DNA of 60,172 nucleotides from positions 1-60,172 of the forward strand of contig JAJFLV010000021.1 of assembly GCA_021772535.1 (NCBI GenBank), read 5' to 3'. The stretch is from Opitutales bacterium (lineage in GTDB: Bacteria > Verrucomicrobiota > Verrucomicrobiia > Opitutales > UBA2987). The position numbers were made by a program, and so were the translations under genes. Under the pieces are notes generated by a model. The model had not been told where the DNA came from. It did not search any database and saw only the letters and a list, made by a program, of their open reading frames with translations. This document shows, piece after piece, positions 15,171 through 21,531 of the stretch. How positions within the stretch are numbered: the stretch's first letter is position 1; every line of letters begins with the position of its first letter.

Positions 15171-15215
15171 TCGTTAAAAACGTATCGTAAATGTAGCAGT
15201 AGGAAACAATCTTTT

Positions 15216-15230
15216 TAGAACCTATCTTAA
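15216..15230. repeat. Solo TIR-like sequence (TAGAACCTATCTTAA)
   Basis: Same first 12 bases as the TIR of the element at 15311-15588. Confidence 0.45.
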
Positions 15231-15310
15231 TATTCCCTTTTCAATCACTACGAAATTCTTTTGTATGCAAAAGGCTGGATTTTTGGGAGATAGACGGATC
15301 TCCACAATAT

Positions 15311-15588
15311 TAGAACCTATCTCAAAATCGATGATGTTGATGCAGAGAGCAATTATGCGCTTGGAGCAAGGCGCACCGGGGCTTGCCGGGCTGGAAGCCC
15401 TGCTGCCCCGGCGGAACGCCGCTCAAACACATAATTGCCTCTGTCCAAAGGATTTGTGCGGCACGGTAGCACCTGCTGCGTTGGTTTGCGCTCGAGGGGC
15501 TTATAGCCCATCTGGGCGCAAAGCCGCCTGGCATCTGCCACCGTGGCGTTACAAACATCATTCATCTGCGAATTTGAGATAGGTTCTA
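15311..15588. mobile_element. MITE-like element, 278 bp, with ~20-bp terminal inverted repeats
   Basis: Left TAGAACCTATCTCAAAATCG, right CGAATTTGAGATAGGTTCTA (reverse complement TAGAACCTATCTCAAATTCG, one mismatch); GC-rich interior with hairpins (e.g. CCGGGGC...GCCCCGG); TA at both ends. Confidence 0.65.
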
Positions 15589-15611
15589 CTTTCTGTTTTC
15601 AACCTGATGGC

Positions 15612-16874
15612 ATGTCTGAAAATTTAACCAAGACCGCTTCGGCTCCCTTCCATGTGATGACCAAGCCAATTGGTCCACGCTGCAATATCGATTGCAAATA
15701 TTGCTTTTACCTCGAAAAGGAGAAGCTTTTCCCCCGGGGGGAAAATTCGCGGATGCCCAAGGACGTACTCGAAAATTATGTGCGACAGTACATCGAGGCC
15801 CAACCTGGGAAAGAGGTTACCTTCGCCTGGCAGGGAGGCGAGCCAACCCTTATGGGGGTGGATTTCTTTCGCCAAGCGGTAGCCTTTCAAAAAAAACATG
15901 GTAATGGGAAAAAAATCGCCAATTCATTCCAGACCAATGCCACCCTGCTTAATGACGAATGGTGCCGGTTCTTGAGGGATAACGACTTTCTTGTCGGCAT
16001 CAGCATCGACGGTCCTCGGGAACTCCACGACGCCCACCGGGTGGACCGCAAACAAAATTCCACCTTCGACCGCGTCATGCGTGGTATCGGCTTGTGCCGC
16101 AAGCATGGCGTGCAATTCAATACCCTCACCTGTGTCACTCGCCGCAATTCGAAAAAGCCCCTCGAAGTTTACCAATTTTTACGCAAAATCGGATCCCGAT
16201 ACCTCCAGTTCATTCCCATTGTGGAAAGAAAACCCGATGATACCGCCGCTTTGCTGAACCTTACCCTGGCGACTCCCCCCGAAGCGGAGGATGAAAGTGA
16301 TAAATTCAGCCCGGTTACCCCCTGGAGCGTGCTACCCAAGGACTACGGAAAATTTCTCGTAAACATTTTCGACCACTGGGTGCGCAACCATGTCGGCGGC
16401 ACCTATGTCCAGATCTTTGATGTGGCCCTCGGTAACTGGATGGACATGGGCGGCAGCCTTTGTATTTTCAGCGAACACTGTGGCCGAGCCCTTGCCATTG
16501 AACACAACGGCGACCTCTATGCCTGCGACCATTATGTTTACCCCCAATACCTGCAAGGCAATATCCGAGATAAAAGCATTGCGGAAATGGTCGATTCTCC
16601 GGTCATGAAAAAATTTGGCCGTGACAAATCAGACACCCTGCCCGCCTACTGCCGCCGCTGTGATTACCGCTTCGCATGCCACGGAGAGTGTCCCAAACAC
16701 CGCTTCATGAAAACCCCTGATGGCGAATACGGCCTCAACTACCTCTGCCCTGCCTACAAAAAGTTTTTCAGTCACATCGACCCCTATATGAAAACTATGT
16801 GCGATCTGCTCAGGAATCAACAGGCGCCCGCCTCCATTATGGGAATGCTCAAAAAGGGGCTCGTCCGGGTCTAA
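15612..16874 (+). CDS. Radical SAM/SPASM protein, anaerobic sulfatase-maturase-like
   Basis: GPRCNIDCKYCFYLEKEKLFP (CxxxCxxC), AWQGGEPTLMG, and C-terminal cysteine clusters CRRCDYRFACHGECPKHRF; start ATG at 15612. Confidence 0.85.
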   Translation: MSENLTKTASAPFHVMTKPIGPRCNIDCKYCFYLEKEKLFPRGENSRMPKDVLENYVRQYIEAQPGKEVTFAWQGGEPTLMGVDFFRQAVAFQKKHGNGKKIANSFQTNATLLNDEWCRFLRDNDFLVGISIDGPRELHDAHRVDRKQNSTFDRVMRGIGLCRKHGVQFNTLTCVTRRNSKKPLEVYQFLRKIGSRYLQFIPIVERKPDDTAALLNLTLATPPEAEDESDKFSPVTPWSVLPKDYGKFLVNIFDHWVRNHVGGTYVQIFDVALGNWMDMGGSLCIFSEHCGRALAIEHNGDLYACDHYVYPQYLQGNIRDKSIAEMVDSPVMKKFGRDKSDTLPAYCRRCDYRFACHGECPKHRFMKTPDGEYGLNYLCPAYKKFFSHIDPYMKTMCDLLRNQQAPASIMGMLKKGLVRV

Positions 16875-17345: not shown

Positions 17346-17723
17346 TTAATTTCCCTCCCCCTCTTTGGGAGTCCCCGAATACTGTTTCCCTTCACTCGCA
17401 TCTTCCATGCTTTTTAACTGACTCTCAAGGCCGATGGCCTGCTCCAGAGGAAGCACGAATGCGATGCCGGTGCCGGGCTCGTGAAATTTACCCTCCTTGG
17501 AAATCGCTTTCAGGATGGGGCCAACCAGGCTCTCCTCAACAATAAACAGGACGACATCGGTGGGGGCCTCGAGGGTGAGACCAAAAAAGGATTTGGCCTC
17601 GTGTATGCCGACCCCTCGGGCATTGATGATGGTGGCGCCGGTGGCGCCTGCTGCCTTGGCCCCATCGACAATGCTGTCCGTCAGGTCTGTTTTTACCATG
17701 GAGATTATGAACTTTAATTTCAT
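17346..17723 (-). CDS. P-II family nitrogen-regulator-like protein (short, non-canonical T-loop)
   Basis: MKLKFIISMVKTDLTDSIVDGAKAAGATGATIINARGVG...TDVVLFIVEESLVGPILKAISKEGKFHEPGTGIAFVLPLEQAIGL. Confidence 0.75.
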   Translation of the reverse strand: MKLKFIISMVKTDLTDSIVDGAKAAGATGATIINARGVGIHEAKSFFGLTLEAPTDVVLFIVEESLVGPILKAISKEGKFHEPGTGIAFVLPLEQAIGLESQLKSMEDASEGKQYSGTPKEGEGN

Positions 17724-17749
17724 TTCGATCCTTTCTTAAATTGCCCAGG

Positions 17750-18520
17750 CTAGGTTCGCCTTTGGTCCAACCAATGAGCGCATTGAATATAAGCCAAAAC
17801 GGTAATAATGGGAAAAACGCTGGCAAAGGCCACCAGGCCGAACCCGTCCAGGGCCACATTGCGCCCTGGTATGGTGCTGGAAAGCCCCAACCCCAGAGCG
17901 GCCACCAATGGCACGGTTACAGTCGAGGTGGTGACTCCACCTGTATCATAGGCCAATGGGATTATGTATCGTGGTGCAAATATGGTTTGCAATATGACGA
18001 TGAAATAGCCGGCAGCGAAGTAGATCAAAAGAGGAGTGCCTGTAATGATCCGAAAGATGCCCAGAATTATTCCTCCCGCAACCCCCACGGCCACGGCAAT
18101 CCTCAGTCCCCATTGCTTTATGCTTCCGCGGGATACCTCCTCAGCCTTCATGGCCACGGCCATAAGGGCGGGTTCGGCAATTGTTGTAGAGAAGCCGATC
18201 AGGCCACCAAAAAGGTAAATCCAGCCATAGGCCCACCAGACAGGTTCAGCGGTATTAGATTTTGAACCGAAAATAAAAGCGGGGGCGGACAATTGCTCTG
18301 CCATCATTTTGCCCACCGGAAAAAGTGCTTTATCGAGCCCGATGAGAAACAGGGCCAAACCCAGAATGCAGAATAAAAATCCAAACGCCACACGCTTCTT
18401 ATGGAGAATGGGTTGGCGCAGAATCAGTAATTGAAAAAATAAAATAAGCACAATGACGGGAAACACATCCCTGCCGGTTGAAAGGATGATTTTCCCTGTT
18501 TCAGTGAATTCGTTACCCAT
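17750..18520 (-). CDS. DUF1538 family integral membrane protein
   Basis: Hydrophobic; contains [29 protein letters not shown], shared with the adjacent paralog. Confidence 0.8.
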   Translation of the reverse strand: MGNEFTETGKIILSTGRDVFPVIVLILFFQLLILRQPILHKKRVAFGFLFCILGLALFLIGLDKALFPVGKMMAEQLSAPAFIFGSKSNTAEPVWWAYGWIYLFGGLIGFSTTIAEPALMAVAMKAEEVSRGSIKQWGLRIAVAVGVAGGIILGIFRIITGTPLLIYFAAGYFIVILQTIFAPRYIIPLAYDTGGVTTSTVTVPLVAALGLGLSSTIPGRNVALDGFGLVAFASVFPIITVLAYIQCAHWLDQRRT

Positions 18521-18531
18521 GGTGAGGCCGG

Positions 18532-19266
18532 TTACCGGTCAAATAGAATAATACCGAAAGCCAAAACAAATATTATTGGGAGAAGAGAAGCCAGTGCAAT
18601 CAGGCCAAACCCATGCAGAAGAGGGTTCCGGTGGCGAATCGTTGTAGCCAGGCCAACCCCGAAAGCCGTAACCAGCGGAACCGTAACTGTCGATGTGGTG
18701 ACCCCACCGGAATCGTAGGCAATCCCAATGATTTCATTGGGGGCCAAAAAGGTCATTAGGATAACGATCCCATAACCCCCGATGATCAGATAATGCAAGG
18801 GCCAGCCCAGCAAAATCCGTAAAATACCTAAACCGACCGCCAGTCCTACAGCCACTGCAACGGTAAGCCGGATTCCCATTGCATATTCAGTTTGTCCCTC
18901 GATGCTCCTTGTTATTAACCCGGCCTCTGCAGCAACCTCTGCCGCTTCTCCACTAATGGCAATGAGTGCTGGTTCGGCTATCGTGGTCGAGAATCCGAGG
19001 AAAAACCCGAAAGTCATTAGCCAAAACACGCTCCCTTTACGGGCAAATGCTCCCGCCATGCTTTCTCCGATGGGAAAGAGCCCCATTTCGAGTCCTTCCA
19101 AAAACAAGCCCAGCCCAATTGCCACCATGACAACCCCGAACAACACTTGTCCCAAATGCGGAACCGGTTGCTGCAAAATGAAAACTTGAAAAAAAACAAT
19201 TACCAGGATTATGGGCGCCAAATCTCTCAAGATCTTCTTGGCCTTTTTCCAAATCAAACTGCCCAT
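18532..19266 (-). CDS. DUF1538 family integral membrane protein (paralog)
   Basis: Contains [29 protein letters not shown]; same operon orientation. Confidence 0.8.
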
Positions 19267-19504
19267 ATTCGTTATTTAGCTACCTGGATATTAGCTATCT
19301 TTCAATAAGTTTAATCGATTTCAGTTTTTTTGGGAACTGAATTGTCATAATTATCCTTGATTCAAAGTGACATTGTGGGCTGCTTTCCGACCGTACCTTC
19401 CTTGTTTTCCAAAAAATAGACCTGACTCCCTAAAGTATTATGAGACAGAGCCGAATTATCTACCCAGTAAGTTCCGCTCTAATTGAAATAAATAAGCAAA
19501 AACG

Positions 19505-19695
19505 GTAAAACTAAAACAGGGTGGGCCCGTTTTACTGGAACCCACCCTGTTCGTAGCAGTAGTGGTAATAACCACTTTAGGCCGTAGTTACCACCACGCG
19601 TGGTTTTCCCCGGCCTCCCATAATGGGAGGCCGCAGGAAATTTGCTTTCTACCCCCCCGGTAGAAATTTATTTTCCGCACCCCATGCGTAGTAAA
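19505..19695 (-). ncRNA. Candidate structured RNA: about six consecutive hairpins, last one terminator-like on the minus strand
   Basis: Inverted repeats (plus-strand coordinates): 19677-19689 CGCA/TGCG; 19646-19666 TTTCTACC/GGTAGAAA; 19612-19632 GGCCTCCCA/TGGGAGGCC; 19594-19603 CCACGCGTGG; 19561-19576 AGTGGT/ACCACT; 19515-19551 AACAGGGTGGG/CCCACCCTGTT followed on the minus strand by TTAGTTTT. No ORF. Confidence 0.55.
19511..19551 (-). terminator. Intrinsic terminator-like hairpin
   Basis: Perfect 11-bp stem AACAGGGTGGG/CCCACCCTGTT; minus-strand reading ends ...CCCACCCTGTTTTAGTTTT. Confidence 0.6.
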
Positions 19696-20064
19696 TTTGT
19701 CCTCTCCTAAATTCATTGGAAATTTTTAAACGTCAACTTTTTTCCTGATCGATTACTTGATATTGAATGAGTATTAATCTTTATAAACAACATAGGTCTT
19801 ATACCCCATAATGCAACCCATAAATACCTGATTTCAGTTAATAAAGTGTAAATTTATTATTTTATAAGCCGCTATAGAACAAATACATTCGTAATTTTAA
19901 AACTATTGTTACAACATTGTAAAATATTTATGAATTATAAAATTTTTAATATTCATTTCCCCAAAATCGCACCTCTTTTTTTGGGAAAATGACGGGTGCT
20001 TGCAATCAACAGTCTTACTATTGGCAAAAGAGGGATAATTGTAAATTTATTTAAAAATCCGCAA

Positions 20065-21531
20065 CTAACCCGCTTGTTTACGCGTCTCAACGGCCCAGCG
20101 ATATATATTTTCATAGGTAGCCGATGGGTTCTTCCAGGAAAAGTCTTTCCTCATTCCATTTAACTGTAATCGTCTATACTCCTTCGGTTGATCTCTATAA
20201 AGGATGGCTGCCCTCTCAATGGCCGATCCAAGATCTTCAGGGGTAGCATCAGCAAACAGCAAGCCGGTGGCATCCCTCTTCCCTTTTCCATAAGGATCGA
20301 TGGTGTCGATTAAACCACCGGTTGAGCGTGCCACTGGCGGCGTGCCGTACCTCATGGCATACATTTGACTAAGACCACAGGGCTCGAACCGGCTTGGCAT
20401 AACAAAGAAATCCGAGCCGCCATAAATCAAATGAGCCAGTTGGTCGCTGAATCCAATTTGCACCCCTACCCTGCCCTTAAAACGCTCCCCCAATTGTTTG
20501 AATCGCTCTTCAAGTTCCTTTTCTCCAGTGCCCAGCAAGGCGATTTGCCCGTCTGTTGTCTCCATTATGGCGGCCACCGCTTCGGCCAGCAAATCCAATC
20601 CCTTCTGTTGGTAGAGACGGGAAACCACACCGAATAGTGGAATCTCGGCCTTAATCTCCAAACCCAACTCTTTTTGTAATTCAGCCTTGCAAAGGCCCTT
20701 GCCCTTGCGATTGGAAATAGAATAGGTGGCCGGCAGCAAAGGATCGCTTTGGGGGTTCCAAACGCTCGTATCGATGCCATTTATTTCTCCAATCAGGTCG
20801 CCCGCCCTGAGTTTCAGTATATGATGCAAACCGTGACCGTTGTCCGGTTTGAGGATTTCACGGGCATATTCGGGACTTACAGTGGTGATCTTGGTGGCAT
20901 TGTAGATTCCCCCCTTTAGAAAGTTCACGTGCCCCATCGCCTCCAGACAATCCGGCCGGTAAACGGAGGCGGGAAGCTGGGCATACTCAATGCTCGAATA
21001 GGGGAAATGTCCCTGATGCTGCAAATTATGGATGGTCAGAATGCTGGCCGCTTTACCTAATGGCTCATAGAAATCATTGGCATTCAAATAAACCGGGACC
21101 AGGGCTGTCGGCCAGTCGTGACAATGAATAACATCGGGAATCCAGCCCAGATAATAGCACAGGTTAAGGGCTGCTCGCGATAGAAAAATGAACCGCCGGT
21201 CATTGTCCTGAGGTCCCCGGCTGGAGTTTCCGTAAACATCGGGGCGGTCGTAAAATTCGTTAAATTCAAGAAAATAGGTCTCCACCTCCGAACCGGGCAA
21301 GCGACTCTCCCAAATCCGGCACTGAAGGTTTTCCCGACCTAGATTAACGGTTAACGGAATATTATAAGGTATCCATTTGCCAATTTTCTTGATACCGGAG
21401 TAGAGAGGGCATACCAGCCTGACTTCATGCCCCATCCCGGCTAGTTCCTTCGATAGCGCTCCAACTACATCGGCCAGCCCCCCCACCTTGATTAGGGGCG
21501 CCACCTCGGAGGCTATCATGAAAATTTTCAT
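20065..21531 (-). CDS. glgA: Glycogen synthase (ADP-glucose type)
   Basis: MKIFMIASEVAPLIKVGGLADVVGALSKEL (KVGGL), VVSRLYQQKGLDLLAEA, PSRFEPCGLSQMYAMRYGTPPVARSTGGLIDTI. Confidence 0.95.
   Translation of the reverse strand: MKIFMIASEVAPLIKVGGLADVVGALSKELAGMGHEVRLVCPLYSGIKKIGKWIPYNIPLTVNLGRENLQCRIWESRLPGSEVETYFLEFNEFYDRPDVYGNSSRGPQDNDRRFIFLSRAALNLCYYLGWIPDVIHCHDWPTALVPVYLNANDFYEPLGKAASILTIHNLQHQGHFPYSSIEYAQLPASVYRPDCLEAMGHVNFLKGGIYNATKITTVSPEYAREILKPDNGHGLHHILKLRAGDLIGEINGIDTSVWNPQSDPLLPATYSISNRKGKGLCKAELQKELGLEIKAEIPLFGVVSRLYQQKGLDLLAEAVAAIMETTDGQIALLGTGEKELEERFKQLGERFKGRVGVQIGFSDQLAHLIYGGSDFFVMPSRFEPCGLSQMYAMRYGTPPVARSTGGLIDTIDPYGKGKRDATGLLFADATPEDLGSAIERAAILYRDQPKEYRRLQLNGMRKDFSWKNPSATYENIYRWAVETRKQAG

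Follow-up and report, generated by a model that had tools for sequence, protein, structure and literature searches.

A hairpin array conserved behind glgA in a genus of Opitutales is a candidate stand-alone small RNA gene

Introduction

What is encoded by a short run of non-coding DNA that is packed with inverted repeats and lies, in the genome of an Opitutales bacterium, between glgA and a DUF1538-DUF1538-PII-like cassette? The stretch of DNA analysed here (the window; 60,172 nt) makes up a single contig of a draft genome of 3.9 Mb, and a sequence-only reading of it had described an array of about six hairpins that ends in an intrinsic terminator on the minus strand and might be either a stand-alone sRNA or a regulated leader. 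Small RNAs are, to our knowledge, almost unstudied in this phylum. Our analysis suggests that the array most likely encodes a small non-coding RNA with four tight hairpins and its own terminator; we weigh this view against a leader, the 3' end of the glgA transcript and an element that works at the DNA level.

Results

The inverted repeats previously seen in the array are all present, at about the places given for them, and include an 11-bp pair (AACAGGGTGGG/CCCACCCTGTT) as well as GGCCTCCCAT/ATGGGAGGCC, TTTCTACC/GGTAGAAA and GTAGTGGTAA/TTACCACCAC. As minus-strand RNA, the array stretch (19495-19700; 206 nt) folds with -94.7 kcal/mol (z -7.0), a stability reached by 0 of 200 shuffled sequences. 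When the whole window was tiled on both strands (2,000 tiles), two adjacent minus-strand tiles over the array took ranks 1 and 2 for stability, corrected for G+C. No tRNA was found in the window.

Conservation was judged from two homologous sequences, that of the window and that of a same-genus Opitutales MAG (G001; the sister genome). Here, the homologue is found behind glgA as in the window, with 69% identity across window positions 19509-19924. Column identity averages 85% within the hairpin part, and most of 19740-19914 is 60-84% identical. The adjacent glgA genes share 77% identity in protein, 73% in DNA and 39% at four-fold degenerate sites, from which it follows that unconstrained sequence has largely decayed between the two genomes and that the non-coding block is held by selection. 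The conserved part starts abruptly near 19914-19924 and stops at the terminator, the sequence past 19505 being not conserved.

Elsewhere in the window, the next most extreme RNA stability belongs to minus-strand positions 15181-15560, where long-armed inverted repeats of high G+C content (GCAATTATG...CATAATTGC) are nested and for which no Rfam match was found. This region is contained in a segment (15172-15629) that does not align with the sister genome at the same place and is therefore possibly an inserted element.

Using RNAalifold with the two sequences, we obtained a consensus of 49 pairs in four hairpins (A to D). Every pair is standard in both genomes (98 pair cells), and sliding the partners against each other lowers pairing from 100% to 44-59%. 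Ten of the 49 pairs are variable: two are changed on both sides (C-G/U-A in hairpin B, U-A/C-G in hairpin D) and the other eight show one-sided changes through G-U. Since there are only two homologous sequences, covariation is thin, and a letter-shuffle control, itself weak with so few sequences, did as well in 119 of 500 cases. Of the six repeats that had been noted, four hairpins are conserved in the sister species.

Hairpin A (19646-19666, minus strand like all parts that follow; UUUCUACC-GGGGG-GGUAGAAA) is identical in the sister genome over its 21 nt. An outward extension of its stem and a palindrome (CCACGCGTGG), both pointed out in the earlier reading, are not conserved there. Hairpin B (19604-19640) has 15 consensus pairs, five of them variable and all kept, with one changed on both sides. 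Hairpin C (19562-19597) forms 14 bp in the window sequence (-19.2 kcal/mol) and 4 + 9 bp separated by an internal loop in the sister genome (-15.5 kcal/mol). It is followed by a single-stranded linker, UACUGCUAC (19553-19561), which is identical in both genomes, unpaired in the consensus and thus a candidate contact site. Hairpin D (19514-19552) is the stem of the intrinsic terminator, an 11-bp perfect stem plus extensions, and differs in the sister genome by a U-A to C-G double change and a G-C to G-U change. Its U-rich tail (19505-19513) begins as a run within the stem (UUUUAGUUUU; UUUUCGUUG in the sister genome). Hairpin D went unlisted in an automatic terminator scan because its loop is longer than the limit of 8 used there; with its GC stem and U tail kept in both genomes, the minus-strand terminator of the earlier reading is supported. 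A further stem, a weak one (19675-19680 with 19598-19603; span 19598-19680), would close around A and B and directly abut C. It appears in the consensus structure of a wider alignment only, is absent from single-sequence folds and has five pairs, all of which differ between the two genomes and all of which are kept; we take this stem as suggestive only.

As the array hairpins are near-palindromic and the plus-strand RNA also folds well (-82.4 kcal/mol, z -6.1), one may ask whether we are looking at DNA, that is, a repeat, a recombination site or palindromic protein-binding sites, with RNA structure as a by-product. However, column shuffles of the alignment gave z -13.0 for the minus strand versus -6.8 for the plus strand, and G-U accounts for most of the variable pairs when these are read in minus sense, but not in plus sense. 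Since minus-strand G-U wobbles turn into A-C mismatches on the plus strand, minus-strand transcription is favoured. In addition, the array is single-copy in its own genome, in which only its own reverse-complement hairpins match otherwise, so that a dispersed repeat of the REP or MITE type, the outcome that would have spoken against an RNA gene, is not what we find. Phages gave no match, plasmids only a short chance-like piece, and scans of viral contigs with exact 25-mers and 19-mers gave no match either. A DNA-level role thus seems very improbable to us, and the minus-strand RNA proposed earlier gains from the conserved homologue, the upkeep of every pair, the wobbles in minus sense, the single copy and the lack of an Rfam match (see below).

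Where might such an RNA begin? In the 5' half of the conserved block (19690-19930), conserved structure is no more than expected by chance (z -0.6 minus, -0.8 plus), which is why this half is more likely promoter or unstructured RNA. Candidate promoter P2 (19789-19816, minus strand) reads TTGCAT-N16-TATGTT in the window, where it falls below the scan threshold, and TTGATA-N16-TATGAT in the sister genome. Candidate promoter P1 (19894-19924, minus strand) reads TTTACA-N18-TAAAAT and/or consists of 11-bp-spaced TTACAA repeats; being 84% conserved, it is the best-conserved part of the 5' region. Promoter-like matches in the block are of weak consensus and about as many as expected by chance. With a start at P2, the proposed structured sRNA would span 19505-19782 (minus strand; ~275 nt), with one at P1 it would start near 19887 and measure ~380 nt, all ends being deduced from the sequence. 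The TTACAA-like repeats upstream of the RNA (19903-19924; 11-bp spacing) are conserved in the sister genome (TTTTACAA-N3-TGTTACAATAG) and may resemble a PhoB/PhoP-type box or direct repeat.

The upstream neighbour conserved together with the RNA is glgA (glycogen/starch synthase; 20065-21531, minus strand; Pfam PF08323 and PF00534), and the main rival reading sees the RNA as part of the glgA transcript, i.e. a long 3' UTR that, through its hairpins and terminator, would end glgA transcription, guard the mRNA from 3' exonucleases and perhaps be processed into a 3'-UTR-derived sRNA. This could be so because the RNA is known only beside glgA: it lies on the same strand, ~140 nt past the glgA stop, in the two genomes where it occurs, and G002, another genome of the family, has neither the RNA nor a detectable glgA. 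Also, there is no strong terminator between glgA and the RNA. Weak terminator-like sequences do lie between the two, however; the G002 case counts for less in a genome that is only 81% complete, and the ~140 nt that adjoin glgA are not conserved (24-56% identity) up to the abrupt onset of conservation at 19914-19924, which coincides with promoter-like sequence. Moreover, 400 nt of constrained sequence are more than a simple terminator needs, and other Opitutales glgA genes lack such a 3' region, with nothing similar downstream of 28 of them. The sister genus G003 (complete genome) has glgA closely followed by another gene and no array RNA. On balance, we hold a glgA 3' UTR to be unlikely, albeit the most serious of the alternatives.

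On its other side the array adjoins, in the window, the DUF1538-DUF1538-PII-like cassette (17346-19266, minus strand), which is not part of the element. That the array lies upstream of this operon and on the same strand, as had been stated, holds in the window; together with the terminator at its end and the competing pairings within it, this made the array look like a cis-regulatory leader or attenuator of the operon (for UmpAB-type DUF1538 pairs, Na+(Li+,K+)/H+ antiporter activity has been shown in Halomonas, PMC5484666). The terminator, however, is ~240 nt away from the first cassette gene, and the short hairpin AGTGGT/ACCACT, proposed to form one half of a mutually exclusive pair, drops from -6.7 kcal/mol in the window to -0.4 kcal/mol in the sister genome while stem C stays, so the pair is not a conserved switch. 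In addition, the order of genes in the sister genome is a radical-SAM gene, a dUTPase_2-like gene, the array and glgA. The cassette is missing there and the gene downstream runs convergently to the array, which leaves a leader without any gene to act on. The dUTPase_2-like gene of G002 has an unrelated gene behind it. In both G001 and G002 the cassette is found on other contigs without an array in front, where the pair adjoins an apparent sugar-nucleotide uridylyltransferase gene (as read from open frames), and no second copy of the array was detected in either genome by covariance model. With the array occurring without the operon (G001) and the operon without the array (G001, G002), we reject a DUF1538 leader as a conserved role and consider this reading highly unlikely for the window, too. 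Most simply, one may suppose that in the window genome the cassette ended up behind the terminator of the RNA.

The cassette at 17346-19266 sits at a different genomic place than those of G001 and G002, i.e. it has been relocated, and another DUF1538 pair of the window genome is located on contig C213.

How far does the RNA reach beyond these two genomes? Among 373 Opitutales genomes, a covariance model (R1) recovered the window genome, the sister genome and one weak match in G082, a member of another Opitutales family. The latter (L066:3040-3135; G082:C1:240040-240130) lies between convergent genes, has only hairpin A in common with the array (TTCTACCGGGGGGGTAGAA, an exact 19-nt copy), stands directly upstream of a strong unrelated terminator and was not found in three congeners of G082; it is probably a coincidence rather than a shared motif. 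Across ~85,000 species genomes, the exact 19-mer of hairpin A occurred elsewhere only in the sister MAG OFTM35 (JAJFLU010000015.1). At the sensitivity used, the RNA element thus appears to be genus-specific.

In agreement with the earlier failure to match the array to a named RNA family, no family of Rfam 15 reached its gathering threshold anywhere in the window. At permissive thresholds, the region gives weak matches that lie for the most part on the wrong strand and have no counterpart in the homologue; L20_leader (RF00558) is the exception. This family shares with the array, as do riboswitch-type and other protein-binding leaders, several stems followed by an intrinsic terminator, and it scores on the right strand in both homologues. 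At 16.0 and 13.1 bits, these scores are far below the gathering score of 58.7; besides, there is no L20 gene and the sister genome has no co-directional downstream gene. The best-ranked Rfam scores in the region, anti-hemB sRNA (RF02837; 20.4 bits) and ROSE_2 (RF01832; 20.1 bits), are plus-strand matches far below gathering scores (49.5 and 65, respectively) and absent for the sister genome. 6S RNA (RF00013) resembles the array RNA in size range and strong structure, but is one long bulged hairpin instead of a series of hairpins. Its locus is elsewhere in all four family genomes (G000-G003), being on contig C146 in the window genome (63.2 bits), which is why the array is not 6S RNA.

Discussion

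Our findings that the array is conserved in structure and strand, while its neighbourhood on the cassette side is not, lead us to regard a stand-alone, intrinsically terminated and strongly structured sRNA gene on the minus strand as the probable explanation, with its transcription, promoter and mode of action inferred. In the choice between sRNA and leader that had been left open, the RNA, its strand and its terminator are therefore supported and the leader is not. A promoter of its own in the conserved 19780-19924 block would drive minus-strand transcription, and the intrinsic terminator (19505-19552) would stop it. The four hairpins, being rigid, may then expose invariant unpaired segments, namely the G5 loop of hairpin A, the linker UACUGCUAC and the terminator loop, and these segments would most likely act in trans and independently of Hfq by base-pairing with mRNA or by binding protein. 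In line with this, a search for Hfq (PF17209) that was positive in control genomes gave no match in the four genomes of the family (G000-G003). When one short pattern complementary to the linker was used to look for targets in G000 and G001, it gave few matches, which were at unrelated loci and none of which was common to both. A CsrA sponge was dropped as a reading because inspection by eye showed no GGA loops.

Among known RNAs, the array may best be compared with the structured, intrinsically terminated sRNAs of Hfq-less bacteria, which are likewise intergenic, with several stable stems and short invariant unpaired segments; as in these, the array ends in a GC stem and a U tract, and Hfq is not found in the family. 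It differs in that it resembles no Rfam family, whether by sequence or by model. Most likely, the array RNA thus stands for a genus-level family of sRNAs, of a known kind but so far undescribed, with two sequences. A bolder option, less probable still than a glgA 3' UTR, is a new lineage-specific class of structured RNA with a defined three-dimensional core, in which A and B would be closed by the weak stem abutting C and presented together with the invariant G5 loop and the linker. Such an RNA would act without Hfq, too, possibly by sequestering a protein.

The array corrects a misreading that is easily made: adjacency to DUF1538 genes suggested a riboregulated leader, and the sister genome shows that this adjacency is not conserved. 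Small RNAs of Opitutales are practically undescribed in the literature we searched. With Hfq not found in the family, a conserved rigid sRNA at this locus, if true, would offer a starting point for learning how bacteria without Hfq make use of such RNAs.
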